DNA of 64,000 nucleotides, from positions 1-64,000 of the forward strand of contig NZ_VAJM01000021.1 of assembly GCF_005771675.1 (NCBI RefSeq). Direction: 5' to 3'. Positions 2,987 to 57,666 of this stretch are shown here, piece by piece (position 1 is the first letter of the stretch; the number at the start of each line of letters is the position of its first letter). This stretch comes from Hymenobacter jeollabukensis (GTDB lineage: Bacteria; Bacteroidota; Bacteroidia; Cytophagales; Hymenobacteraceae). Below the pieces are notes generated by a model, which searched no databases, was not told where the DNA came from, and saw only the letters and a list, made by a program, of their open reading frames with translations. A program made the translations under genes and the position numbers.

Positions 2987-3655
2987 TTACAGGCGTCTAC
3001 CGACTGCGGCAAAGAAGTCGTCTTCTCGCTTGTTGACCTTGCCTAACTGGCTCATAGTAAGTGGCGCAAGCTGTCCAAAGCGCTTTCGCTCTGCCGCATC
3101 GGCCAAGTCCCGCAAATCGTGTAACATGGTATAGAAGGCCGTGATAAACTCGTAGTTGAGGATGCTGCTCACCGGTCCCCGCTGAAAGGCACGGTCCAGT
3201 CGGGACTCTCGGCTTAAAAAGAAGAAGGTGGTGATATCATACCGGTAGCCGACGACGATGTTGTTTGCTTGCATGAGCAATGCGCGCTGCTTCGGCGTCA
3301 GCAGCTTAAGGCGACGGGTCGCGCGGTGCTCCACTTCTTCGTAGAGCTTATCCAGCTTGTGGCCGAGGCTCCGGATTTTCAGGTAGGCGTCCTCGGGCGT
3401 TTCGCTGGCTGGCGACAAACTCACCACTAACGACTTGAGTGCGCACTCCGCACTCATGAGCAGGTCCACGTACAGCTTGGCAAAGAACGACGTGGTATCG
3501 TGCGGGCGATTGTCCTTTAGGAGACCGACGCGCCAGAGAAAATCATTGGCATCCGCGGCAAACGACGACGCTATTTTCCGTTTCAATGCTTGATTCGCGT
3601 TGAAACGACGACCTTTTGGCAACAGGTCTAGAGGGTTTAATTTCTTGTTAATCAT
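2987..3655 (-). CDS. Hypothetical helical protein
   Basis: A 222-residue protein with no signal peptide or membrane segment. It is strongly helical and basic at the start. Residues about 65-115 contain a pattern of alternating Ala/Leu and Lys/Glu with RSLGHKLDKLYEEVE, which faintly resembles HEPN-type helical bundles (Arg and His three residues apart), but the full catalytic R-x4-6-H motif is not evident. It is transcribed away from the ArsR-type regulator, separated by about 255 bp, and ends just before the 20-bp hairpin. Function unknown. Confidence 0.55.
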   Translation of the reverse strand: MINKKLNPLDLLPKGRRFNANQALKRKIASSFAADANDFLWRVGLLKDNRPHDTTSFFAKLYVDLLMSAECALKSLVVSLSPASETPEDAYLKIRSLGHKLDKLYEEVEHRATRRLKLLTPKQRALLMQANNIVVGYRYDITTFFFLSRESRLDRAFQRGPVSSILNYEFITAFYTMLHDLRDLADAAERKRFGQLAPLTMSQLGKVNKREDDFFAAVGRRL

Positions 3656-14081: not shown

Positions 14082-14089
14082 TAAATTTG
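14082..14089 (+). promoter_or_regulatory. Candidate -7 box before the DUF983 and cydAB genes
   Basis: TAAATTTG matches TAnnTTTG. A TTTG at 14051-14054 is 27 bp upstream, longer than usual for a -33 element, so the match is incomplete. It could start a transcript running into the DUF983 and cytochrome bd genes. Confidence 0.4.
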
Positions 14090-29101: not shown

Positions 29102-30466
29102 ATGAAGCAAATTTCAGGTTTGCGATTTGACGCTTTGGCTGGATATGCCCGTCAACCTGCTACCAAACACATGTTTCAAGAAGTTGCTTGGTTTTCACAT
29201 TTTGACGAGCGTGTTCTAGGTGTATTGGTGAAGCACTGGGAGGATGGTGACTTTGCGGGAGCAGTTTTTGGCCGTGACAGGAAAGGACGTTACCGCGCAG
29301 TAGAGCTTACAGTTCCATTTCAGGAAAATGCCACCCTCGCGAGAATAGATCTACGCCGGGCAATGGAAAGAGTATCGGGACAACCTGATGAATCTTATTT
29401 TCAGGGTGATGAGAAGGGGAAACCTTTAGACTTCTTTGCGCCTCAAGCACCCGATAAAGAACAAAATCCCTCGTTTCGCATGCTACTGAACGACGAGGGG
29501 CATGCGGCTGCCAAAGGGATTATCAAACCATTGATGCACTGGTTTGAAGACCCAGACGGAAATTTTGTTGAGCAATTTCAATCAAGTGGATTTGATGCGC
29601 GCATTTGGGAGCTATACCTATATGCGGCTTTTGTAGAGATGGGTTATGCGTTCGACCGCACTAAACCAATGCCTGATTTCACTTGCGAAGGCATAAACGG
29701 CATTTTTTGCGTTGAGGCAGTTACAGTTAACCCTACAGTTATAGATGGGGCTATTCAGCCTCCTCCACAGATTAATACGCCGGACGATATTCTACAATAT
29801 CAGCGTGAGTACATGCCCATTAAGTTTGGCAGCCCACTCACATCCAAGCTAAAGAAGAGGTACTGGGAAAAACCTCATGTTGCAGGTAAGCCGCTAATAT
29901 TTGCTATTCAGGACTTCTCTGCACCAGGTAGCCTGCTGGATTCCCGAGCTGGCCTCCCCATTTACCTATATGGTATAGACTACGATTGGACCCATGATAA
30001 TGATGGCCAATTGGTTATAACTCCCCGTGAGGTAAAAACCCACCGTTGGGGCTCAAAGGAAATTCCCTCCGGCTTCTTTAATCTACCCGACTCCGAACAC
30101 ATTAGCGGGGTGCTGTTCAGCAATAGTGGTACTATTTCCAAGTTCAACAGAATGGGGGTACTGGCTGGGTTTGGCTTAGAAAACGTAACGTTACTCAGGC
30201 ATGGATCTGCCGTAAACCACGATCCCAATGCAACAGAACCATTACCATTCATTCACCGTGTTGACCCAACGGTATATACCGAATCATGGAGCGAGGGTCT
30301 AGAGTTATACCATAACCCTAATTCCTTACACCCTCTGGACCCTGCGTTACTACCAAACATCGCTCACTATCACCTGCTTGAAGACGGTTTACTGCAAGGC
30401 ATTACACCGAAATGGCATCCTCTGGTATCTCATACGCAAGTATTAGTAGGAGTTAAGGAGCTATAG
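29102..30466 (+). CDS. Hypothetical protein with PD-(D/E)xK-like core
   Basis: A 454-residue soluble protein of unknown function. In the middle, IWELYLYAAFVEMGY (E170), MPDF (D192) and FCVEAV (E205) follow the order of a PD-(D/E)xK nuclease core (helix with Glu, then Asp, then Glu on a beta strand), but the usual Lys two residues after the last Glu is replaced by Val. Upstream and downstream parts are beta-rich without known motifs. It is less GC-rich than its neighbours and lies 37 bp after the partition genes. A defence or DNA-processing role is a guess. The name applied to similar proteins is not recalled with certainty. Confidence 0.6.
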   Translation: MKQISGLRFDALAGYARQPATKHMFQEVAWFSHFDERVLGVLVKHWEDGDFAGAVFGRDRKGRYRAVELTVPFQENATLARIDLRRAMERVSGQPDESYFQGDEKGKPLDFFAPQAPDKEQNPSFRMLLNDEGHAAAKGIIKPLMHWFEDPDGNFVEQFQSSGFDARIWELYLYAAFVEMGYAFDRTKPMPDFTCEGINGIFCVEAVTVNPTVIDGAIQPPPQINTPDDILQYQREYMPIKFGSPLTSKLKKRYWEKPHVAGKPLIFAIQDFSAPGSLLDSRAGLPIYLYGIDYDWTHDNDGQLVITPREVKTHRWGSKEIPSGFFNLPDSEHISGVLFSNSGTISKFNRMGVLAGFGLENVTLLRHGSAVNHDPNATEPLPFIHRVDPTVYTESWSEGLELYHNPNSLHPLDPALLPNIAHYHLLEDGLLQGITPKWHPLVSHTQVLVGVKEL

Positions 30467-46366: not shown

Positions 46367-47608
46367 TCAGGAATTCACAGTTAGTGCAAGCGCAAAGTTG
46401 CTTGGGCACCGGTCGTAAACCAGCAGTTCAGGATGCACGTTGGGCATTAAGTCCATTCCCACTGCCACGCCTATACTAAGCGGCACGCTGGGAAATAAAT
46501 GCAGTTGTCGAGCCGACTTGTGCTCTTGCTCCAACATACCCAGGAACTGCCGGTAGCAGCCTCGAAAGGCTCCTAGCGTTGCTTGCGATGCTATCAGTCC
46601 AGGCACGGGCGTTACGCCAACAGGGCGCAACTCATATACAGTGAAGCGCTGGTCAAAGGCTGAGGGCAAATCAGCGATTGGAATAGTGCCGCTGATATTG
46701 ACGATGAGCGCCACGGAATCTACCTGAGTGCCCTGCTGAAGACGTCGCCACTCAAATGCGAGAGTGGCGGCATCAGGCTGCCAATACCATTCTTCTTCCG
46801 CTACCCGGTGTCGCTCGAATAAAGTAACCCGCACTTTATTACCCAGGTGAAATCCAAAGTACACTAGGGCGGGAATGCGGGCAAAGGGAAAGATGGACAA
46901 GTGTGTAATATCCCCGGCTTTCACGGCATCCTGAATCTTGCCGATACCCTTGATAATAGCCGTTCGGGCTGCGCTCCAGTAGATTTCGAGGCTGGCATGG
47001 TCTTCGGGATTGCCCAGAGGAGTCAGCTCGATTTCGGTGCCTTCATTGCGAGGATCCAGGTAGAACTGGGCGAATCGGGGATTGGCGTGGCGCAGCGTTG
47101 TTTCGTTACACTCCTGCCGCGAGAGTTGAACAGTGTTGCTTCGGATGGTGCCGAACACCCGGACTACACACGTCTTTTTATTGCGCGGCAAGCCGGTTAC
47201 GTGACGCATGTGAGCTTCCTGCTCTCGCTTCAGCTCGTGCAGCTTGGCAATGGTGAATTCACCCACGCCCAGCTTGTGGTCAATGGTATCGTGGTCGGGC
47301 TGACACAAGAGCATGAAGTTGTCAGGGTTTTCACGCTGCTCCTTGGTAAGGGGGGAATCGGTGCGGGGAGAACGGGGGTCGTCGCTCTGCCCCACGATAT
47401 GGGCCATTTCGCCCCGGCGGTAGGAGTAATGGCCGATTTGTGTCGATTCGAGCAGCCACTCGTTGCAGAGCTGACAGCGTCCGGCGGCGCGGGTCCACAC
47501 TTCAACCCGCACGCTTTCGGTAGGGGATGTGCGTTGCGCTTTCTTCTGCTTGGCCGGCTGACCAGCTGGTGCAGCAGGGGTTTTGCGGGATGTTTTAGCG
47601 GCGGGCAT
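46367..47608 (-). CDS. cap5: HNH-SAVED endonuclease effector (Cap5-like) of CBASS
   Basis: A 413-residue effector. The N-terminal HNH nuclease (about residues 40-125) has zinc cysteines CQLC (C45, C48), C102, and the catalytic pattern MAHIVG (H70), N97, LLCQPDHDTID (H106). The C-terminal 200 residues match a SAVED domain, which senses cyclic oligonucleotides: LFPSVPLSIGVAVGMDLMPNVHPELLVYD is its hallmark. When bound to the signal, Cap5-type proteins degrade DNA and stop phage growth. The start at 47608 overlaps the E2-like gene by 14 nt. Effector of the operon with the genes at 47595 and 48122. Confidence 0.88.
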   Translation of the reverse strand: MPAAKTSRKTPAAPAGQPAKQKKAQRTSPTESVRVEVWTRAAGRCQLCNEWLLESTQIGHYSYRRGEMAHIVGQSDDPRSPRTDSPLTKEQRENPDNFMLLCQPDHDTIDHKLGVGEFTIAKLHELKREQEAHMRHVTGLPRNKKTCVVRVFGTIRSNTVQLSRQECNETTLRHANPRFAQFYLDPRNEGTEIELTPLGNPEDHASLEIYWSAARTAIIKGIGKIQDAVKAGDITHLSIFPFARIPALVYFGFHLGNKVRVTLFERHRVAEEEWYWQPDAATLAFEWRRLQQGTQVDSVALIVNISGTIPIADLPSAFDQRFTVYELRPVGVTPVPGLIASQATLGAFRGCYRQFLGMLEQEHKSARQLHLFPSVPLSIGVAVGMDLMPNVHPELLVYDRCPSNFALALTVNS

Positions 47609-48122
47609 GGAGTTGTTGAAAACGGAGTTGGCGCAGCCGGGCTGCAATGGTAGGGCCGGAGGCTCGGCGTGGTCGTGGGGACGGCGGCGTGAGGGCAGTA
47701 CTCCCGTGCGGAGTGCCTCCGCCACGCCATACCCGGTCGGGAAGCCAGTCTTCGAAGTAGTATAGCCAGAGCATGGCCCAGGGCAGCAGCGTGTGGGCCA
47801 CCGACATGGTGCGGTTCCATTGTCCTTTGGCTGGCGTGTAAAGGCACAAATGCATCCGCTGCTGGCAGTATAGATGCGGAATCTCGCCAGGGCCTGCCAG
47901 AGCCCGTAAGTCCGGCTCAAGCACTTCTACCACTGGCGGGCCTAACCGAGCCGGCAGCGTGAGCCGCACCCGGTAGGTGCGGCTCAGGACAGTTGGCGTG
48001 AGAAAGCCCGTCCAAACCAGCCCGGCACTGGTGATGGACGCGTTACCCAGGGGCCATAGGGCCCGCAGGTTCGCCAGTTGCTGCTCCTGCGGCAGCTGGC
48101 GAGGGCGAGGAAAGCGCCCCAT
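47595..48122 (-). CDS. E2-like conjugating protein of CBASS (short type II)
   Basis: A 175-residue protein between the CD-NTase and effector genes. Residues about 45-125 match the E2-like fold known from type II-short CBASS: SRTYRVRLTLPA, IPHLYCQQRMHLCLY with candidate catalytic C93, and TLLPWAMLWLYYFEDWL after a Gly-Gln-Trp turn. E2-only CBASS proteins are reported to join the CD-NTase to a target and to raise its activity. The C-terminal 40 residues are Arg/Pro-rich and unusual. Its ATG overlaps the CD-NTase stop (TAATG). No E1 or JAB partner gene is present. Confidence 0.75.
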   Translation of the reverse strand: MGRFPRPRQLPQEQQLANLRALWPLGNASITSAGLVWTGFLTPTVLSRTYRVRLTLPARLGPPVVEVLEPDLRALAGPGEIPHLYCQQRMHLCLYTPAKGQWNRTMSVAHTLLPWAMLWLYYFEDWLPDRVWRGGGTPHGSTALTPPSPRPRRASGPTIAARLRQLRFQQLHARR

Positions 48123-49360
48123 TATGCGGCCCCGAAAAAGTCCGTTTCCCGCCGGATGGGCAAGCCTGCCGCATTGACCAGGCCCTTGGCCCCGGCGCTT
48201 ACTAGCGGGGTGAGCGTGGCCGCTTTTTGCAGACGCTGCGCATTAAGATTTGCCGTCTGAACGCCAAACGCCGGGTCCGTGTCACGGGTGCCAAACAGGC
48301 CCCGCATGGATTCTTGCAGCCGGTCGCGACCCTCAAGTTCGGCCAGGCGGCTGAAGTCGGCCAGAGCCCGTTGCTGCCAATCGGCGAAGGCCAGTTGATA
48401 GGCTGGGCCCCGCTTCCACTTGTCGGCGAAGTTCTCGCCGTTGGTGGTGGGGTTGGCCACTACACGCACGTACTGGTTGGTGTCGCGGTCCAGCTCCAAG
48501 CTTATAAAGTTAGGCATGCCGTGCAGCACGGCTAGCAATACGTCCAGTTCCGAGTCAAACACTTGGGTAGCTACGGCGTGCTCGTAGGCATGCGCGGCCA
48601 GTGTGGTGATGATAATGGAAATGGGCGCGAAATCAGCGTCGGAGCGATTTTCGAAATACAAGTCGCGGTGACGCTTGAACAAGCGTATCATGCTGCGCAG
48701 CGCCCCCTGGCCCTGCGTATGCTCCTCGGGCAGCGGGTCGGTTTGGCCCGAGAGGGCAATGTGGCGCTGCTCATAGGCCTTCTCCAGCAGCCGGAAGCGG
48801 GGCACCAGTACGGCTCGTTCCTTAAACCACGCTACGTAGCCAGCTGGGTGGGATTCCTTCCAATTGTGCAGCTCCCGGTCGGGCACAAGTAGGCCACCAT
48901 TGGGGCATAGCGGGTTGCTCACGGCCACCGTAATGTCCATGTGAAAAAGATTGGCGTACACTACTCGGACGCAGCGATTCTTAAGCTGCACCATTTCTTC
49001 GTACGTCCCGTGTTCCTTTAGCCGCTTGAAGAGCAGGTCATACACGTTACGGGGCGTGTGTACAGTGTAGCCGGCAGCCAACAGGTGGCAAATGAAATCG
49101 AGGTCGTATTCCTCGCCGTTCAGCGGTCGGGTTACCGTTCCGAGGGCAAAAGAACCCTGTGGGAACATGCGGGGTTTGAGCTCGGCCAGCCGCGGGCAGT
49201 CTTCAAGCAGCTTTGTAAGCGTGTCATAACGCTTATTGGCTTCGTCGTAGCGGCTGCTTGGAATGTTGAGCGACTGCGAAACGGTTGTCAGAAGCTGGGC
49301 AACGCCTTGGCGACGCGCGAGCTGCGCGGGCAATTCGGGTATTAGTTGTTGAGGGGTCAT
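48122..49360 (-). CDS. cdnG: CD-NTase cyclic oligonucleotide synthase of CBASS
   Basis: A 412-residue nucleotidyltransferase that senses phage infection and makes a cyclic nucleotide signal. The catalytic motif is FPQGSFALGTVTRP (G69-S70), then EEYDLDF with D86 and D88, and the third Asp in FHMDITVAV (D142). The C-terminal helical part is typical of the family. Subclade cannot be assigned from sequence alone; the symbol is a suggestion for a clade often paired with HNH-SAVED effectors. First gene of the operon, on the minus strand; promoter not identified in the GC-rich leader. Confidence 0.85.
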   Translation of the reverse strand: MTPQQLIPELPAQLARRQGVAQLLTTVSQSLNIPSSRYDEANKRYDTLTKLLEDCPRLAELKPRMFPQGSFALGTVTRPLNGEEYDLDFICHLLAAGYTVHTPRNVYDLLFKRLKEHGTYEEMVQLKNRCVRVVYANLFHMDITVAVSNPLCPNGGLLVPDRELHNWKESHPAGYVAWFKERAVLVPRFRLLEKAYEQRHIALSGQTDPLPEEHTQGQGALRSMIRLFKRHRDLYFENRSDADFAPISIIITTLAAHAYEHAVATQVFDSELDVLLAVLHGMPNFISLELDRDTNQYVRVVANPTTNGENFADKWKRGPAYQLAFADWQQRALADFSRLAELEGRDRLQESMRGLFGTRDTDPAFGVQTANLNAQRLQKAATLTPLVSAGAKGLVNAAGLPIRRETDFFGAA

Positions 49361-49672
49361 GAGGAGGCTTCCTTGAGGCGCGGCTCCGCCAGCCGACCCT
49401 TAAGGCCGGTTTTTTTGATGGACGAATCCGCAGTAAAAAATGGGATTGATAAGGATGTGCCGGCCCGCCGTGCCAAAAGTGCACGCGGAATACCCTACGC
49501 CTAAAATCAAGCGAAGGAGGCTGCGTGCTGGTTAGAAACCAACCAGCACGGCAGGCCGAACATCCTTAAACTGTGGGTGGCCAGGCGCTACGCGCTGACC
49601 CATGGTGGGCGCCCCGGAAGCCTCAACGGGGGGCGATACGTCGAACCTGGCGACGGGTGAGTGCAGAGGGTA
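49361..49672. other. GC-rich, structured non-coding stretch before the CBASS operon
   Basis: No convincing gene. It holds the perfect hairpin CGTGCTGGTT/AACCAGCACG (49524-49533 and 49541-49550, 7-nt loop) and further GC-rich self-complementary stretches. It is the 5' side of the CBASS genes on the minus strand and precedes the small-RNA promoter at 49673. Confidence 0.4.
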
Positions 49673-49704
49673 TTGACCAAACGTAATTGTTTTTCGTACC
49701 TTTG
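49673..49704 (+). promoter_or_regulatory. Strong Bacteroidota promoter of the small RNA
   Basis: A perfect -7 box TACCTTTG (49697-49704) with TTG at 49673-49675 as -33 element, 21 bp apart. No start codon with a fitting gene follows on the plus strand; instead a structured RNA and terminator follow. Confidence 0.8.
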
Positions 49705-49710
49705 CACTCC

Positions 49711-49859
49711 CGCTCACCAAGAGGCGGGATTCATGTATGGAGTAGGGGCAGCCATGCCCCGGCTTAAACTGAAGTGTGAAGTAGATTGGACCCCGCTTCG
49801 CACATCGCGTAAATTTTCGGCCAGCTTGCGCAGAGGTTCTCTGACGGGCTGGCCTTTTT
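49711..49859 (+). ncRNA. Predicted structured small RNA of about 150 nt
   Basis: Between a perfect promoter and a clear terminator lie about 150 nt that form successive hairpins by eye: TCCCGC/GCGGGA (49708-49713 with 49724-49729), GGGGCA/TGCCCC (49745-49750 with 49755-49760), GTGTGAAG/CTTCGCAC (49774-49781 with 49796-49803, one G-U pair), and the terminator GGCCAGC/GCTGGCC (49819-49825 with 49848-49854) then T5. Neither strand has a convincing protein. No SRP, RNase P or tmRNA signature was recognised. It lies in the defence island between CBASS and the type I restriction operon. Confidence 0.65.
49819..49859 (+). terminator. Rho-independent terminator of the small RNA
   Basis: GGCCAGC (49819-49825) pairs with GCTGGCC (49848-49854), followed by five T (49855-49859). 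Confidence 0.75.
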
Positions 49860-50012
49860 CATGTCGTTGGCTAGGAAAAATTGAAACTGGGGAACTAAGC
49901 ACCCTAGTTAATGCTTACAGCAGCTTCGTCAGCAAAGATACATCCTATCTTGGCACCTACAACATATTCACTGTTCTTTCGGTTAAAATTTATCCGATAG
50001 TAGGCGCATTAT

Positions 50013-50846
50013 TTACGCCGGGCTGGGAGAAACCAGACCGGCGCTTGTTTCCAACAAGCTTTCCAGCTCTGCGAGGCGCTGTTGCCAATGCGGCCAATCG
50101 GGCATAAGGCGGGTCTGAAGGGCGTAGAAAGCCTGATTATGGCGTCTTATAAGTAGGTGAGCAAGTTCATGACACACGACGTACTCAATGCAGTGTCGTG
50201 GTGTTTTTACTAGGTCGGGGTGAAGAAGAATGGTACGAGTAGCGGCAGCACAGCTTCCCCAGCGGCTGGGCATGGTGAGTAAACGTAAGCGTAACTCGGG
50301 TCCGGGCGGCAGCAGCGTTGCAGGCAACCGTGCAAGAACTGCCGCGAACTCACGAGGCAAGTGACGTTGGGCCTGCTCGCGGTACCACTGCTTCACCAGC
50401 TGGCCTACCCGCGCGGTGTTGGTAGGGTCGGCAACAGTTACCAGGAGCCGCCTTCCTACCAACCGTACGGCTGCTGGGCCAGCTTCCACGCGCAGGCGGT
50501 ACTGCCGTCCTAAGTAATAGTGCATTTCGCCGCTACGATAGTGGCGAGGCTGAGCCACGGCCTGCCGACGCTGGGCCTCCCATTGCCGCACCACCCATGG
50601 AGCGCGTTTACGTACGCTGTCAGCAATGGCCGCGCTGGTGGCGTCTTCGGGTGCAGCTACAAGCAGTCGGCCATCGGGCAGTACATTCAGGGCCAGGGTG
50701 CGGCGTGAGCGGCGCTCTATCACATAGCGAAGCGTTAGCGAACCAAAGTCGACGGAGCCGGTCTCGGGCTCTGTCGCCGCGGAGTTGGCAAGCGGAGGGT
50801 ACACACTTAGCTCAGCCGCTGTTGACGGGTGGGAAGAGCGCGGCAT
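50013..50846 (-). CDS. YgjP/WLM-like metallopeptidase of the type I RM operon
   Basis: A 277-residue protein of the SprT/YgjP metallohydrolase family. The zinc motif CHELAHLLIRRHNQAFY (HELAH) lies near residue 230, following LLHPDLVKTPRHCIEYVV. The N-terminal part has the YgjP pattern IERRSRRTLALNVLPDGRLLVAAPEDA. Its ATG overlaps the hsdR stop (TAATG), so it is the last gene of the restriction operon. YgjP genes commonly follow type I R genes; their exact job is unclear. Confidence 0.85.
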   Translation of the reverse strand: MPRSSHPSTAAELSVYPPLANSAATEPETGSVDFGSLTLRYVIERRSRRTLALNVLPDGRLLVAAPEDATSAAIADSVRKRAPWVVRQWEAQRRQAVAQPRHYRSGEMHYYLGRQYRLRVEAGPAAVRLVGRRLLVTVADPTNTARVGQLVKQWYREQAQRHLPREFAAVLARLPATLLPPGPELRLRLLTMPSRWGSCAAATRTILLHPDLVKTPRHCIEYVVCHELAHLLIRRHNQAFYALQTRLMPDWPHWQQRLAELESLLETSAGLVSPSPA

Positions 50847-53800
50847 TATGGACGGTAGCGAGCTTGGGCTAGCTGTTCCAGTTGCAGAATCAGGTCGTCG
50901 AGCCAGATGGGAGTAAGGGATGGTAGTAACCGACGCAAGTCCCAGGCGTGGTCCTCGAATGCTTGGCGCAACTGGCTGCTCACCCTCGACTGACGAGCGT
51001 CCACGCGAACGGCACCGGTAGCAGGGTCGGTGAGGACACGGCGCATGATAGACTCGGCCTCAGTTGCCCACTCGGCCACGGCTTCGGCAGGCAAGGAGGC
51101 ACCGGTAGTCCCTGCTTCGTTATGCAGTTGGGGCTGCACCATTCGAAACACGGCGGCTGCCACGCTGTGACTATCCTGCAAAGCGCCTGGTAGGTCGTGC
51201 CTCACCGAACCGGGCTCGCCGACTACCGCTGCCTCGTGGGCACGGGCTTGGCGCAGCAATTCGGCATCGGCTAGGCGACCGGCTTCGTAATCAGCAAGGG
51301 TAGCTTTTATAAGGTCGGAAAACCGCTGGTTGAGGGCAGGGTCTTCGGCAAAGTGGTCGGTGACAGTTCGTAGAGTACGAGTGAGAATGGTAAGGGCCTG
51401 TGCTGTGGTGCCTTCCTGGGCCAGGCGGGCCACTTCGGCAGCGAATTTTTCGCGGTCGAAGATGTCCACAGGCTCAGTCAGCACGCGGATGTCGCCGGCG
51501 GTTACGTGCGTGTCAATCAACTGCTGCACCTGGGGTTCGTATTGGGCGTAGTCAACCCGCAGTGAGTACTGCTGGATGATGGCTCGCCGCAGGTTTTCAA
51601 AGAAAACCAGGTCCTGCTCGTATAGTGCCCGTTGCTCTGGAGACACGGTGCGCACCCACTGTAAGGTACTTAGTCCCAGCTGTAGCAAACGACCAAAGCG
51701 CCGTAGCCGCTCGAAAAACCGGGTGCGCAGCGCTTCGTCTGCCAGCACCAGAATGTAAGCGGCAGGATCATGCCGGTTCGATACATAACCCCTAAATAGC
51801 TCGTGTACGTCGGTGTGGGCCGCGCCCAGCTCCTCCAACTCGGTGTTCACATCGAGCAGGCTCAGTCCTGGCACAGCGGCGTCGTGCAAGGCCTGGGGGT
51901 CGTAGGTAGCGAAGTCGTCGGTTGCAAATTCTTCCAGGGCCGCGCTAAGCTCTGTGGTAACACCATCGTAATCAAGAATAAAACCGCGCGATTTGCCGGG
52001 CGCACAACGGTTGACGCGGGCAATTGCCTGAAATAAGGTGTGGCCTGTGAGGCGGCGGCAGAGGTAGAGCACCACGTTGCGTGGGTTGTCGAAGCCGGTG
52101 AGCAGCTTGTCAACCACTATCATCAGATCAGGCCCGCCGTCGGGATTCAGCCACTGGCTTTTTAGATTTTTCTCATACTGGTCGGGACGGCCGAAGCGGT
52201 CCATCATACGTGCCCAGAAGGTAAGAACCTCATCAGTGGGACCAGCGGCGTGGGCGTCGTCGTAACCCTCGCGCTCATCGGGCGGCGAAATCAATACCTC
52301 ACTCGTTACCAAACGAGTTTCATCAAGCAAGCGTTTGAGTTGCACAGCGGCCCGCTTGCTGGGCGCAACCACTTGGCCTTTAAATCCACCCTCATTGCCT
52401 TTCCAGAAACGCGAGAAGTGCTTCGCGATGTCCCAGGCTTTGGCCCGCAGCACCTGCTGGGCTTGGTTGAGGGCCCCGCTGCGGCTGAACTTGCGCTTTA
52501 GGTCGGCCTGGGCGTAAGGCGTAAGCGGCTCAGCGATGTGATTGAAGTAGCGGTCGAGTGGGTCAGCGTTGACTTGGAAATCAGGCAGTCGGCTTTCGTA
52601 CACCAATGGCAGAACGGCCCCGTCGCGTACAGCGTCGGTGATGGGGTATTTATGGAGAAACCCGCCAAACTGCTCGGCTGTATGCTTTTCGCCCCGCTGC
52701 AAGGGTGTGCCGGTGAAGGCCACAAACCGCGCCCTGGGAAACACCTGCCGCATTTGCACGCTCAATCGGCCGTACTGGGTGCGGTGGCCTTCGTCTACGA
52801 GCACAAACAGGTTGTCGCGCTCCACGGGCTGCAGGGTTTTCACCACTGCTGCAAACTTGTGGATGAGCGTGGAGATGATAGTGCTCGAATGTGCCTCGCC
52901 CAGCAGCTTCACCAAGCGCTGGCCGGTGCTAGCATGCTCCACCGACAGCCCTGCCCGCTTAAAAGTGTGGAATAGCTGCTCGTCTAGCTCCACTCGGTCG
53001 GTGACGAGCACAATCTTGGGATTCGGAAAAGCCGGGTGGCGCGTGAGCTGCCTGGCCAACATTACCATAGTTAGGCTTTTACCCGAGCCTTGCGAGTGCC
53101 AGAGCACGCCACCTGGTCGGGTGGGGTCGTCGGCAAGGCCGGCGAGGGTGCGGCGTACGCCGTAGTATTGCTGGTAGCGGGCCACCACCTTATGGCCGGC
53201 CTCGAACAACAAATAGTCGCGCACCAATTCCAACAGGCGAGCCGGTTCGCAAAGGTGAAACAGCAGTTCGTCCTGCTCGGTGAGCTCCCAAGACAGAGGA
53301 GCGCCGCCAGCCGGCACCGTAGGCGGGTGCAGGGCCGCGTGCTCGGGGTGCTGGCGTAGAGCGGCATACAGAGTCTCGTTGACGGATGCCTCGTTTTTGA
53401 GGGTTTGCAAGCGGGCTCGGCGGGCAGCATGGTCGGGGGTATCCTGAGGCCGCTCACGCCAGCGGGCCCACAGCTCAGTTGGGGTAGCGGTGGTGGCGTA
53501 ACGGGCAGGACCAGGGCCGCACATAGCCATCAGCAGCTGAGCGTACACATATAGGCCCCGAATGCCGTCGGGTGCTTGGCTGCGCATATGCTGGCGGATG
53601 CCCTGGTGCTCGGGGCTGTTCTGGTCAGGGGCCTTGCACTCGATAACTACTAAGGGAATGCCGTTCACATACAGCACGATGTCAGGCCGGAAAGTATCGG
53701 CGCGACCGGAGCGGGCCACAGCCAGTTCCTCTGTCACGTGAAAGGCATTGTTGGCGGGCGTTTCCCAGTCGATGTAACGCACCGCGTGTGAGCGTCGCTC

Positions 53801-54151
53801 CCCGTTGGCCGTAGTGGTTTCATGGTAGCGGCCCAGCGTGAGCAGCTCGTGCAAGTGACGGTTGGCAGCCACGTAACCGCGCTCCAGGGGGTAGCGGCGC
53901 AAGGCCTCCACCGAGGTACGCACGCCGGCCTCGGCCAGTGGCTGGGGGGCCATACCTAGAGCAGGCGGACGCTGGTTGAGCTGAGCCAACGCCTCGTTCA
54001 GCACCGGGGTCAGCAGTACCTCGTCAGACCGTTGTCCGCGCAGGGTGCGGACTTGGGCAGGTGGCAGGTAGGTATAGCCCAGAGCCTGCAATAGCAAGAG
54101 CGCAGGCACCTTGCTGGCGGGTGTTTCGCGAAATAGAGAGGCCGTGGGCAT
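50846..54151 (-). CDS. hsdR: Type I restriction endonuclease, R subunit
   Basis: A 1101-residue restriction and translocation subunit. N-terminal nuclease: RPDIVLYVNGIPLVVIECK (D and ExK). Helicase motor: LWHSQGSGKSLTMV (Walker A), FVLVDEGHRTQYG (DEAD-type box), FTGTPLQRGEKH (motif III region), SKRAAVQLKRLLDE, and MIVVDKLLTGFDNP (motif V). Length is normal. The ATG at 54151 (MPTASLFRE) is preferred to the ATG at 54205, which lies inside hsdS. Acts with HsdM and HsdS to cut unmodified DNA. Confidence 0.92.
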   Translation of the reverse strand: MPTASLFRETPASKVPALLLLQALGYTYLPPAQVRTLRGQRSDEVLLTPVLNEALAQLNQRPPALGMAPQPLAEAGVRTSVEALRRYPLERGYVAANRHLHELLTLGRYHETTTANGERRSHAVRYIDWETPANNAFHVTEELAVARSGRADTFRPDIVLYVNGIPLVVIECKAPDQNSPEHQGIRQHMRSQAPDGIRGLYVYAQLLMAMCGPGPARYATTATPTELWARWRERPQDTPDHAARRARLQTLKNEASVNETLYAALRQHPEHAALHPPTVPAGGAPLSWELTEQDELLFHLCEPARLLELVRDYLLFEAGHKVVARYQQYYGVRRTLAGLADDPTRPGGVLWHSQGSGKSLTMVMLARQLTRHPAFPNPKIVLVTDRVELDEQLFHTFKRAGLSVEHASTGQRLVKLLGEAHSSTIISTLIHKFAAVVKTLQPVERDNLFVLVDEGHRTQYGRLSVQMRQVFPRARFVAFTGTPLQRGEKHTAEQFGGFLHKYPITDAVRDGAVLPLVYESRLPDFQVNADPLDRYFNHIAEPLTPYAQADLKRKFSRSGALNQAQQVLRAKAWDIAKHFSRFWKGNEGGFKGQVVAPSKRAAVQLKRLLDETRLVTSEVLISPPDEREGYDDAHAAGPTDEVLTFWARMMDRFGRPDQYEKNLKSQWLNPDGGPDLMIVVDKLLTGFDNPRNVVLYLCRRLTGHTLFQAIARVNRCAPGKSRGFILDYDGVTTELSAALEEFATDDFATYDPQALHDAAVPGLSLLDVNTELEELGAAHTDVHELFRGYVSNRHDPAAYILVLADEALRTRFFERLRRFGRLLQLGLSTLQWVRTVSPEQRALYEQDLVFFENLRRAIIQQYSLRVDYAQYEPQVQQLIDTHVTAGDIRVLTEPVDIFDREKFAAEVARLAQEGTTAQALTILTRTLRTVTDHFAEDPALNQRFSDLIKATLADYEAGRLADAELLRQARAHEAAVVGEPGSVRHDLPGALQDSHSVAAAVFRMVQPQLHNEAGTTGASLPAEAVAEWATEAESIMRRVLTDPATGAVRVDARQSRVSSQLRQAFEDHAWDLRRLLPSLTPIWLDDLILQLEQLAQARYRP

Positions 54152-54188
54152 AGCGGGTAGCAAAATGCAAGAGAAGAATTTTGCCTTA

Positions 54189-55418
54189 TCAGGCCGATAT
54201 ATCACTCACCCGCAGCTGACCCGTGAGGAGTTGTTGCATGAGCCCTCGCTTTTGCTCCCGTAATGCCTTCAACTCGTCCTCACGCAAGCGGATTTCCTCG
54301 GCGGCCGTGTTGAGAACGGCTGCAATTGCTTGCTGCTCGGGAAGGGAGGGTATGAAAATGGAATGACGGAGAAAATCATTGAAATCAAATGTCATTTTCT
54401 CAATATGAACCCCATAGCTTGACACATAACAAAGTCTATAGAAAGCAGGCAGTTGAGAATAGAAATCGAAGAAGTTTATGTCCAGCTTACCAGAATCTTT
54501 TGCAACAAGAGCTAAATAAGAGCCGGAAATTTTGCGGCCATCATGTTCTGCCCTAACTAAGCCAGAAGCACCATGTACAACCTGCATTTTTGAAATCAGA
54601 AAATCTCCTGCCTTAGCGGTGCGCAGGTTTTTAGTTTTGATTTCGGAACCCTTGAGACTTTCGCGGTAGAACACACCACCTGAACGCCTCTTGATTGATA
54701 GCAGCTCATAAGTCTCGTCGTCATTCCAAGAGACAGGCCTTTTCACCTCGCGCAGCAAAGCACTCAACTTGTGCTTTTTCCACTCATCTGCAAATCCCGG
54801 TAGTCTCTTAGCACCCGTAAGCAACTGCTGCCGTAGGGCACGCTGCTGCACGCGCAAGGTTGTCAGTAGCTTAGTTTGGATTTGGATAGCCTCATCCCAA
54901 GTTACGAGCACGGCAGCAATGCTGCGCTGCTCTGGCAGCGGAGGAAGTGGAATCTTATAGCTTTTCAGGCTCGAAAACTCCAGGCTTTCTACTGTAGTGC
55001 CCACCTTGGCCGCGTACTGAAGTAGGCTCTGATTAAAGCCTCGCAGACAAAACAACACGTAATGCAGGTCATGCCCCTGGTCTAACCTTAAGCATTTCAT
55101 GTCCTGATTGATTGCCACGGGCACAGTATTTACAGCTACAGGAATTAGCCTGCGCAAAATGCCGCTTCGCGTTACAACCAGCAGTGACCCAGCCGGAATC
55201 AAATTGGTGGCTGAATTGGCAATTGCTTCCTCTGTGATGTGGTCTTCGGCGTCGCTAACCCACAGGTGACGCATGTCTTTGGGTGAAACCCATGGAATGG
55301 TGCCTTCCGTCCAGTATGCGGCCTTGTCCTTACTAGGCGTGCCACCGCCGTACCATTTGCCTAACTCGCCGAGCGGTTTCATAACCCACCCGGTCGGCAG
55401 CTGTTGCGTGTTATTCAT
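54189..55418 (-). CDS. hsdS: Type I restriction system specificity subunit S
   Basis: A 409-residue DNA-recognition subunit with two target-recognition domains (about 5-170 and 205-370) joined by conserved helices: LPPLPEQRSIAAVLVTWDEAIQ near 177-195, then the second copy SLPEQQAIAAVLNTAAEEIRL near 362-380. Central and C-terminal helices bind HsdM. The first domain (GWVMKPLGELGKWYGGGTPSK) is a normal TRD start. Located between hsdM (18 bp) and hsdR. Confidence 0.92.
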   Translation of the reverse strand: MNNTQQLPTGWVMKPLGELGKWYGGGTPSKDKAAYWTEGTIPWVSPKDMRHLWVSDAEDHITEEAIANSATNLIPAGSLLVVTRSGILRRLIPVAVNTVPVAINQDMKCLRLDQGHDLHYVLFCLRGFNQSLLQYAAKVGTTVESLEFSSLKSYKIPLPPLPEQRSIAAVLVTWDEAIQIQTKLLTTLRVQQRALRQQLLTGAKRLPGFADEWKKHKLSALLREVKRPVSWNDDETYELLSIKRRSGGVFYRESLKGSEIKTKNLRTAKAGDFLISKMQVVHGASGLVRAEHDGRKISGSYLALVAKDSGKLDINFFDFYSQLPAFYRLCYVSSYGVHIEKMTFDFNDFLRHSIFIPSLPEQQAIAAVLNTAAEEIRLREDELKALREQKRGLMQQLLTGQLRVSDISA

Positions 55419-55436
55419 CGCTTTTCCGACTTTAGG

Positions 55437-56999
55437 TTAGTTACCGCTCAGCTCCTTTAAGTACTGTTGCATTCGCTGGCGTACATCGGTAAGCTGTTGT
55501 TCTAGGGTGTGGAGTTCAGCTTGCACGGTGGGCAAATCCACAGTGTCTTCCGCCTCGAAGGTGTCCACGTAGCGCGGAATATTGAGATTGAAGTCGTTGG
55601 CTGCCAGCTCGGCCAGAGTAGCGCGGTAGGCTAGACGGGGCTCCAGCACGCCGGCTGGCCCTGCGGCGCCAGCCTGCCGAAAGCCCTTCACTACGTCCAC
55701 AATGCGGGCCGCATGCTCAGGCATCAGCATGGCACGGGTGCGCACGTCGGTGTAGAGGCGGCTGGCATCCACAAACAGAACGTCAGTGGTGGGGCGCTGC
55801 CGGCGCAGCAGGATAATAGCCGTGGGGATTCCAGTGCCAAAGAACAGGTTAGCTGGCAAGCCAATCACGGCTTCAATCAGGCCCTCCTCAAGTAATTGCC
55901 GCCGAATTTTCCCCTCGGCTGCTCCCCGAAACAATACGCCATGAGGTACTACCACGCCACCGCGTCCGTCGGTTTCGGTCATGGTTTCCACCAGGTGCGA
56001 GATGAACGCGAAGTCGCCTTTGCTCTTGGGCGGCAGCCCACGGTGGAAGCGGCGGTAGGGGTCGGCGGCGGCAGTCTCGTGTCCCCACTTATCGAGCGAA
56101 AATGGCGGGTTGGCCACCACCACATTGAAACGTAGCAGCCGGTCGCCGTCGGTAAGCAGCGGATTGGTAAGCGTGTCGCCCTGTACCAATACAGCATCGT
56201 CTTGGAAGTGCAGCACGCAGTTCTGACGAGCCAGCGCGTAAGTAGCTCCATTCAACTCCTGCCCATACAAAGCAAAGCTTCCCCCATTGGGTACCTGCTG
56301 ACCAGTACGGATGAGCAGAGAGGCCGAACCGCAAGTGGGGTCACAGATTCGGTCGCCGGGACGGGGCTCTACCAACTGCGCCAACAACGCCGATACAGCT
56401 TTAGGCGTGTAAAACTCACCTGCCTTCTTGCCTGCATTCGAGGCGAAGCGTTCAATCAGGTACTCGTACACGTCGCCGATGACGTCTTGGCTCGTGAGGT
56501 GGTCTGGTGTCAGGTCGATGGCGCGGAAATCCTCAATCAAGTGCTTGAGGCGACGCTTCATGTCCTTGGTGGCACCGAGCTGAGCTTCGGAAGCGAAGTC
56601 AATGCCGCGAAACACCTTGTCAAGCTTGGCTCGGTTGGCATCTTCGAGCGAGTCGAGGGCGTGATTAATCAGCTCTCCGATATCATCCTGGTCGCGGCAT
56701 TCATAAAGGTATTGGTAGCGGCTTTGGTCAGGCACCTGAAACCGCTCGTGACGCAATGCGCGCTGCACGCGTAGGTCGCGCTCAGGGTCAGTGGCGTACT
56801 TTTCTTCGTAGAAGCGGCGGCGCTCATCCCAGAGGTCCGACAGATACTTCAAGAACAGAAATGTGAGAATATAATCCTTGTAGGAGCTTGGGTCAATTAC
56901 ACCGCGAAATGAATCGCAGGCCCGCCAAACCGCGTTGAAAATTTCTTCGGTTGTGGCCGGGCGCGGATTAGCAGGAGCAGGAAACAGGGAAGTGGTCAT
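55437..56999 (-). CDS. hsdM: Type I DNA methyltransferase subunit M
   Basis: A 520-residue N6-adenine methyltransferase. Motif I is GDRICDPTCGSASLLIRTG (about residue 220), preceded by FYTPKAVSALLAQLV, and motif IV is VVANPPFSLDKWG near 300. The N-terminal helical domain (DSFRGVIDPSSYKDYILTFLFLKYLSDLW) is typical of HsdM. Length is normal. It methylates the system's recognition site to protect host DNA. Confidence 0.94.
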   Translation of the reverse strand: MTTSLFPAPANPRPATTEEIFNAVWRACDSFRGVIDPSSYKDYILTFLFLKYLSDLWDERRRFYEEKYATDPERDLRVQRALRHERFQVPDQSRYQYLYECRDQDDIGELINHALDSLEDANRAKLDKVFRGIDFASEAQLGATKDMKRRLKHLIEDFRAIDLTPDHLTSQDVIGDVYEYLIERFASNAGKKAGEFYTPKAVSALLAQLVEPRPGDRICDPTCGSASLLIRTGQQVPNGGSFALYGQELNGATYALARQNCVLHFQDDAVLVQGDTLTNPLLTDGDRLLRFNVVVANPPFSLDKWGHETAAADPYRRFHRGLPPKSKGDFAFISHLVETMTETDGRGGVVVPHGVLFRGAAEGKIRRQLLEEGLIEAVIGLPANLFFGTGIPTAIILLRRQRPTTDVLFVDASRLYTDVRTRAMLMPEHAARIVDVVKGFRQAGAAGPAGVLEPRLAYRATLAELAANDFNLNIPRYVDTFEAEDTVDLPTVQAELHTLEQQLTDVRQRMQQYLKELSGN

Positions 57000-57029
57000 T
57001 AAGAAGCAAAGGGCAAGAAAACAGAACAG

Positions 57030-57611
57030 TTACAGGGAAAGTTGAGCAGCGAAAAGCAGGTTAAATTCTGCTTCGCGCATCATGGTGAGACGCAGTGCGA
57101 GCCGTTTTTCCTCCAGACGCAAATGATTCAGCTCTACTAAGCGGCGCTGACCTTCCAAAGAAGGCAAGTGACCAGGCATAGGCAAGTCGAGCAGGTCTCG
57201 TTTATTGAGCGTAGCTACTGAAGTGGCACTCATGCGGCTTTGCAGTGCCAAACGTGTGGCTGGCTGGTTGAGCCAAATGGCTAAAAATTCGGGTTGGCAT
57301 ACCGCTGGGTCCGGGCGTAGCACCAGTAATGTAGTGGCAGCAGCTGCTGGCAGCCAGTGCGGCTCAACGCAGGCTGCCAGCAAACGGGCTCCTTTGGCAG
57401 CCAATAGCACATCGCCAGCTTGTAGAAGATGGTGTGAAGGCACACCATTTAAGGGTACCCGTACCCGGGGAGCGTCGGATTGCAATGAGCCATCTGTGGT
57501 AAAGTCGGCAAGCTGCAGCACGGCACAGTCGCCGTTGAGGGACGTGTCTTTAGGAGCAAACCCAGCAGAGACGGAAGTAAATTCGCCTAGATGTAAAGGG
57601 GCGATGGGCAT
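57030..57611 (-). CDS. Half-size HsdS-like protein
   Basis: A 193-residue protein resembling one target-recognition domain of HsdS: start LGEFTSVSAGFAPKDTSL, LLQAGDVLLAAKG and FLAIWLNQPATRLALQSRMSAT typical of TRDs, then a linker helix LEGQRRLVELNHLRLEEKRL. It is about half the usual S length and precedes hsdM, where type I operons sometimes carry regulators or spare S parts. It may pair with HsdM as an alternative specificity or control assembly. First gene of the operon. Confidence 0.75.
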   Translation of the reverse strand: MPIAPLHLGEFTSVSAGFAPKDTSLNGDCAVLQLADFTTDGSLQSDAPRVRVPLNGVPSHHLLQAGDVLLAAKGARLLAACVEPHWLPAAAATTLLVLRPDPAVCQPEFLAIWLNQPATRLALQSRMSATSVATLNKRDLLDLPMPGHLPSLEGQRRLVELNHLRLEEKRLALRLTMMREAEFNLLFAAQLSL

Positions 57612-57635: not shown

Positions 57636-57666
57636 CAAAGGTATGCCCAAAATCCAGACTTCCAAA
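57636..57666 (-). promoter_or_regulatory. Promoter of the type I restriction operon
   Basis: On the minus strand the -7 box TACCTTTG (57643-57636) and TTTG -33 (57666-57663) are 19 bp apart: a perfect Bacteroidota promoter about 25 bp before the half-S start. It should drive the whole operon half-S, M, S, R, YgjP. Confidence 0.85.

Follow-up and report, generated by a model that had tools for sequence, protein, structure and literature searches.

A putative structured RNA gene divergent from a CBASS operon in Hymenobacter jeollabukensis, and a covarying RNA class beside immune operons of Hymenobacteraceae

The RNA gene and its locus

We analyzed a window of 64,000 nucleotides from Hymenobacter jeollabukensis (positions 1 to 64,000 of contig NZ_VAJM01000021.1, assembly GCF_005771675.1), which holds a putative gene for a structured small RNA (sRNA) between an operon for a cyclic-oligonucleotide-based antiphage signaling system (CBASS) and a type I restriction operon. 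The gene lies on the plus strand of a 652-nucleotide (nt) gap between these two minus-strand operons. A preliminary description, made from the sequence alone, had placed it there, and its orientation can now be specified: it is divergent from the CBASS operon and convergent with the 3' end of the restriction operon. Its features, and a box facing CBASS, are as follows:

49673 to 49704, plus: Bacteroidota-type promoter, with TTG (-33) at 49673-49675, a 21-nt spacer and TACCTTTG (-7) at 49697-49704
49705 to 49859, plus: putative small RNA gene, its start placed from the promoter and its end at the T5 run
49708 to 49729, plus: stem-loop hp1 of the predicted fold (CCCGC/GCGGG)
49740 to 49765, plus: stem-loop hp2 of the predicted fold (4 bp, a 1x1 mismatch and 6 bp; loop GCCA)
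49771 to 49806, plus: stem-loop hp3 of the predicted fold (GUGUGAAG/CUUCGCAC, with a G-U pair), its loop containing GAUUGGACCC
49819 to 49859, plus: intrinsic terminator, with its stem at 49819-49854 and T5 at 49855-49859
49678 to 49685, minus: divergent box of the -7 kind (TACGTTTG), directed towards CBASS; the sRNA -33 is 2 bp away, and the box has no TTG at its own -33

According to passages of PMC9723704, TAnnTTTG is a promoter consensus in Bacteroidota. TTG-N17-23-TACCTTTG occurs twice in the window, where Markov resampling (100 windows) gives 0.13 on average, and the 6.18-Mb genome holds 43 copies of TTG-N18-22-TACCTTTG against 11 for the pattern read backwards. At this genome density, about 0.002 promoters are expected on one given strand of the gap. 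A TTG at -33 is a further element of promoters of this type. According to a script, the sRNA promoter is the only TANNTTTG box with a TTG in the window that has a strong terminator 80-200 nt downstream; one further TANNTTTG box, lacking the TTG, lies at 14082. The extended box TACCTTTGCACTCCC precedes putative tRNA genes in three loci (L010, L018, L030). On the opposite strand, the TACGTTTG box may be active as a CBASS-side promoter.

The stretch 49709-49862 folds at -65.1 kcal/mol, compared with -50.5 (SD 4.15) for shuffled sequences (z -3.52; none of 200 as low), and its centroid fold has four stem-loops. The terminator is absent from the consensus terminator scan of the window; the likely reason is an internal loop in its stem. 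The preliminary description had proposed a promoter and a T5 terminator bracketing about 150 nt with at least three internal hairpins, one of them kept by a G-U pair. All of this is borne out: the promoter as TTG-N21-TACCTTTG, the terminator at 49819-49859, the hairpins by the centroid and the fold z score, and the G-U pair by hp3 (GUGUGAAG/CUUCGCAC). Thus, 49705-49859 would be a gene for a non-coding structured RNA of roughly 150 nt, whose transcript would probably run from about 49705-49710 to the T5. It is highly improbable that promoter and terminator are chance look-alikes with no RNA gene between them. The sequence itself has no convincing homologue and the gene is known from sequence alone; yet the joint rarity of promoter and terminator, the fold z of -3.5 and a slot shared with the covarying RNA class described below all speak for a gene.

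Other identities for this stretch found no support. A GTG frame of 148 amino acids (124 from the ATG at 49733) stays open through the terminator to 50107; since its stop lies beyond the terminator, the transcript would end before it. GC content by codon position in this frame is unlike that of the 7 genes compared, and the four matches to it elsewhere in the family, at 20-22 bits, carry internal stops, so that the earlier statement that no coding frame fits stands. The same holds for the absence of a known RNA family: Rfam 15 gives no match at gathering thresholds in the window, and sub-threshold matches in the gap have E values of 1.6-6.9. The window contains no tRNA or tmRNA. Tandem repeats are a feature of type III toxin-antitoxin RNAs, and 49361-50012 has none. 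As for a retron or DRT non-coding RNA, no reverse transcriptase family was found among the 19 open reading frames (ORFs) scanned against Pfam (41516-63962).

The sRNA stretch is single-copy in its own genome and has no match among plasmid and phage records. Neither the window hp2 nor the one class hairpin searched for occurs exactly in viral contigs. A DNA search of 204 family genomes listed, beyond the locus itself, matches to the promoter side (query 17-67) or short ones to the terminator side (134-175), which we do not take as homology of the RNA body. Model R1, built from the single sequence, has a second match inside the window (29683-29811, 16.6 bits).

The window belongs to a contig of 66,434 bases whose first 77 bases equal its last 77, and the contig is therefore probably a circular plasmid. 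Pfam scans found a Rep3 initiator and conjugation genes on it. The earlier suggestion that the sRNA might regulate the plasmid is unsupported, the Rep3 gene being 11 kb away. The genes flanking the gap are:

48122 to 49360, minus: CD-NTase (SMODS/DncV-like), first gene of the CBASS operon
47595 to 48122, minus: E2-like CBASS ancillary protein
46367 to 47920, minus: SAVED endonuclease-type effector of CBASS
50013 to 57611, minus: type I restriction operon (193-aa S-like protein, HsdM, HsdS, HsdR and, as its last gene, a YgjP metallopeptidase)

We presume the CBASS operon to be of type II. The restriction operon is preceded by its own TTG-N19-TACCTTTG box (57636-57665, minus), and downstream of it a TTG-N19-TATCTTTG box (49933-49962, minus) points through the sRNA gene towards CBASS. 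The CBASS leader contains a large imperfect inverted repeat (49450-49568), TAAGGATGT...ACATCCTTA, which encloses CGGCCCGCCGTGC/GCACGGCAGGCCG and CGTGCTGGTT/AACCAGCACG; the minus strand of 49361-49640 folds with a z of -5.8, and 49380-49672 has no further match at E 0.001 in the family genomes.

A covarying RNA class in the same slot

With a threshold of E 1e-20, CD-NTase relatives were found in 14 of the 203 other family genomes, and the best 10 of these 14 loci were surveyed with their flanks. At nine of the ten, a structured RNA lies upstream on the strand opposite CBASS: seven loci have a TACCTTTG promoter, a hairpin-rich RNA and a terminator, and two (G057, G084) have a diverged RNA in the same place. 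At the tenth, G134, where the CD-NTase gene is partial, no RNA was seen. There are four distant CD-NTase relatives (G017, G167, G169, G185); a search with model R3 covered G017 and G167 and gave nothing at E 1 in the fetched loci.

A covariance model built from seven sequences (R2) detected, under strict filters, 16 strong loci in 14 of the 204 genomes (E 3.7e-11 or better). Among 15 aligned members, 96.8% of cells are paired and 20 of 32 pairs have changed on both sides, against 3-5 pairs in a control with partners slid by 1-3 columns. Because the model guided this alignment, it leans towards structure. When the first seven sequences are aligned independently with MAFFT, 9 of 32 pairs have changes on both sides; with nine sequences, MAFFT recovers hp2 and the terminator only (8 of 19 pairs). 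Rfam, run on eight class loci, matched a tRNA and nothing else. The class is absent from Rfam, and its covariation is strong. The preliminary description had named compensatory changes in homologues as a test; the syntenic family has them, whereas the window RNA itself is without a convincing homologue in the 204 family genomes.

Model R3 matched 22 of 271 genomes at E 0.01, two strongly and the rest weakly. On the printed sequence, weak R2 or R3 matches in G002, G042, G026 and G097 look like gene ends and terminators; another, in G139, precedes a DUF2188 gene. We also searched CBASS loci from named genomes (best 80 of 471) with R2. All nine of the Hymenobacter loci among them were matched, seven with strong scores and two with weak ones, at E 1e-5 and 0.011; matches at E 0.95 in two loci from outside the Bacteroidota are no better than chance. 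In a CBASS locus of Aquimarina agarivorans (L154), a divergent TANNTTTG box, a hairpin and a T-rich stretch lie upstream of the CD-NTase match at 3501.

The class accompanies several kinds of operon. On the divergent side of the 16 strong loci we find a CD-NTase of the window's clade in seven; another cyclase with an E1-JAB protein and NucC in four (G135 C3, which was scanned, and G051, G091 and G102, assigned by the same or similar ORF lengths); a ThiF protein in one; Multi_ubiq, ThiF and DUF6527 in one; and genes without known function in three, two of these with DUF2188. The convergent side carries HTH-M78 in L056 and L091, Panacea in L061 (with a helix-turn-helix, HTH), L203 (with an MqsA-like match) and L208, a DndB-like gene in L089 and P63C in L207; in L090 the nearest gene has no family, and the remaining loci were judged by ORF length. 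Class RNAs are present on sequenced plasmids of Hymenobacter sp. BRD67. On plasmid unnamed2 of this strain (L207/L261), a class RNA lies about 1.6 kb from an annotated reverse transcriptase domain gene, with a 443-aa gene of unknown function between them.

This range of partners bears on the idea that the CD-NTase binds the RNA directly and is held inactive or activated by it, as has been reported for a staphylococcal CBASS and a phage-made RNA. Beside this CD-NTase clade in Hymenobacter an RNA is nearly always present, and passages of PMC10686824 describe a bacterial cyclase that senses structured viral RNA. Yet the class also stands beside Multi_ubiq/ThiF/DUF6527, ThiF, a NucC-CBASS with another cyclase, and genes of no known family. 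With so many operon types served by the class, the RNA is very unlikely to be a ligand of one CD-NTase.

The usual partner is the small protein DUF2188, at near-constant spacing. In 12 of 18 RNA loci the divergent operon begins with DUF2188, its ATG lying 102-116 nt from the RNA start (one distance reads 154, owing to a misplaced model start); at the other 6 it is missing. Viewed from the protein, DUF2188 (PF09954) occurs at 27 loci in 25 of the 204 genomes, and 21 of the 27 have an opposite-strand promoter box about 95-109 nt upstream, measured from the start codon or from where the domain match begins; behind the box come a hairpin-rich stretch and a terminator. These RNA genes were judged by eye on printed sequence (14 + 7 loci); the remaining 6 loci have none. 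Among the RNAs found in this way are forms with weak R2 scores (sub-families B, C and D), in which 8 of 11 RNAs have the hp2 loop GGCUA. A structure model of DUF2188 (predicted local distance difference test score, 81) weakly resembles AcrIF5 and YegP. No description of an RNA class paired with DUF2188 was found among the listings searched.

By score, 12 of 15 class promoters have a tight inverted repeat, its arms 5-8 bp long, on the -7 box or directly next to it; L059, L203 and L060 fall below the score. The arms vary between lineages, and single cases are modest, the score being reached by 1 to 50 of 300 shuffles; the constant position of the palindrome is the stronger point.

Placing the window RNA in the class

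How far these relatives speak for the window RNA depends on its membership. In our reading, which we consider about evenly balanced, the class consists of undescribed structured RNAs of Hymenobacteraceae that diverge from immune operons, usually with DUF2188, and the window RNA would be a diverged member controlling CBASS locally. Its membership, taken alone, is probable. Window RNA and class have in common the slot, the orientation, the TANNTTYG promoter, a length of about 125-155 nt and a strong terminator, and the window RNA may also keep the sub-family B stem order hp1-hp2-hp3-terminator. Its centroid lies at a mean distance of 59.5 from four sub-family B folds, and 400 of 400 shuffles of the RNA body, with the terminator kept, lie farther (mean, 98.2; SD, 16.5). 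MAFFT aligns the window GGGGCAGCCATGCCCC with the family GGGGTGGCTACATCCCC, setting the GCCA loop on the GCUA loop, and the window hp2 loop AGCCA resembles GRCUA. Within the hp3 loop, 49784-49793 holds GATTGGACCC, the exact reverse complement of GGGTCCAATC, which lies in the third stem of several class RNAs; this may be chance or a swapped interaction. A kissing loop between hp1 and hp3 was dropped as a candidate, as it held in some sub-families only.

Several results weigh against this reading. Model R1 reached 14 other genomes at E 0.007-1, its best score there being 21.9 bits against 203 for the window, and none is convincing. With filters off, R2 gave nothing at 49705-49859, and R3 gave at most 4.5 bits on the window RNA, over a 16-nt piece of hp2. 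When the window RNA is joined to five sub-family B sequences, the consensus falls from 42 to 32 pairs and the covariation term moves from -0.16 to +0.25. Compared with 132 natural terminator-ended segments, the window ranks seventh in closeness to the sub-family B folds, a weaker likeness, with one unrelated segment closer; the other five above it are three copies of reference RNAs and two class RNAs (L252 minus, L189), and some class members, including the reference copy L098, rank below it. The window promoter has no tight -7 palindrome, its best dyad being 4 bp (196 of 300 shuffles as good), and carries a wider 11-nt inverted repeat (49659-49669/49699-49709). DUF2188 is absent beside the window RNA and, at the cut used, from its genome. 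In the best 80 of 471 CBASS loci, R2 finds the class in Hymenobacter only. Finally, the sRNA pairs with the start of the CBASS mRNA no better than shuffles do (z -0.2), and the same holds for the eight relatives tested at the first divergent start codon (lowest p, 0.065, at L207). In that test L091 was left out, and L203 and L208 were excluded: the perfect match at L203 is an artefact, the start used overlapping the RNA gene, and the start used at L208 is that of a downstream frame.

Some of these results would fit a real sRNA outside the DUF2188-linked class, acting in trans on other mRNAs of the chromosome or the plasmid and placed here by an accident of plasmid assembly. Such an RNA would have no model or sequence match to the class, no DUF2188, no tight -7 palindrome and no better pairing with the CBASS leader than shuffles, all as found. 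Yet its strand, slot, length and terminator are as in nine of the ten near CBASS relatives, and only about 0.002 such promoters are expected on that strand of the gap; we consider this alternative unlikely.

Proposed function and comparison with known systems

If the window RNA is indeed a diverged class member acting on CBASS, its promoter suggests part of the mechanism. RNA polymerase drawn to the strong sRNA promoter would compete with an overlapping, weaker CBASS-side start site; this part is proposed from the sequence. The folded RNA may in addition act on a shared protein, which would be DUF2188 or an adjacent regulator in the relatives and a host factor in the window. Together, competition and RNA action would keep CBASS low in uninfected cells. 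A local controller is proposed because pairing with the mRNA does not exceed that of shuffles, because the class accompanies several operon types and because its slot resembles that of the Cap controllers discussed below. Among the roles raised in the preliminary description, regulation of defence genes is the most likely: a structured sRNA gene tied to defence gains support from its slot, which a covarying family also uses, and the control itself is inferred.

The layout of the gap would also allow the act of transcription to be what counts, with opposing transcription blocking read-through from the restriction operon and interfering with the CBASS start, and the RNA a by-product. The sRNA is transcribed against the two flanking operons, which share a strand; its -33 lies 2 bp from the CBASS-facing -7-like box, and from the TTG-N19-TATCTTTG box at 49933-49962 an antisense transcript would pass through the sRNA gene in the direction of CBASS. 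Transcription alone, however, does not require the compensatory stem conservation seen in the relatives, and this account is improbable.

A broader proposal, possible though doubtful, is that DUF2188 and the structured RNA, with back-to-back promoters and a common operator, form a portable ribonucleoprotein controller of varied immune operons, two kinds of CBASS and ubiquitin-like systems among them, and that the window branch lost DUF2188 and became a stand-alone CBASS controller. In the window, the CBASS-leader repeat (49450-49568) occupies the place where relatives would have DUF2188.

The RNA class with its DUF2188 pairing is a larger finding than the window RNA, and it may be an unrecognized RNA switch for bacterial immunity. 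If this is true, an unrecognized RNA carries part of the control of costly bacterial immunity, and DUF2188, a candidate defence protein of unknown function (PDC-S16), gains a partner to test. Since the class is compact, strongly covarying and present on the sequenced BRD67 plasmids, the idea is directly testable.

Among known systems, bacterial sRNAs in Rfam have the same anatomy (their own promoter, stem-loops and an intrinsic terminator), and no Rfam 15 family matches the window. The phage RNA sensed by a CBASS cyclase is likewise a structured RNA linked to CBASS; according to passages of PMC10686824, it comes from phage terminase genes, whereas the window RNA has its gene next to the operon, and members of its class also occur with non-CBASS systems. 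The PADLOC candidate PDC-S16, scanned at L090, is DUF2188, the protein partner of the RNA class; it is a protein model, the divergent RNA lies outside it, and the window's genome lacks DUF2188 at the cut used.

In position, the window RNA resembles the Cap controllers of adjacent immune operons, for which passages of PMC13373217 name CapH with CapP, CapW/BrxR, and CapK with CapS. CapK/CapS adjoin CBASS and Bub operons; 88 of 443 lie immediately downstream of a restriction system, and 57 of 443 have a YegP homologue after them (PMC13373217, in the same passages). They can stand, as the window RNA does, between a restriction system and CBASS. Class relatives that were scanned carry HTH-M78 (L056, L091) or HTH-Panacea (L061), unlike the window, which has no such regulator beside its RNA. 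The local controllers of CBASS and related operons named in these parts of PMC13373217 are proteins, whereas the window element is a structured RNA.
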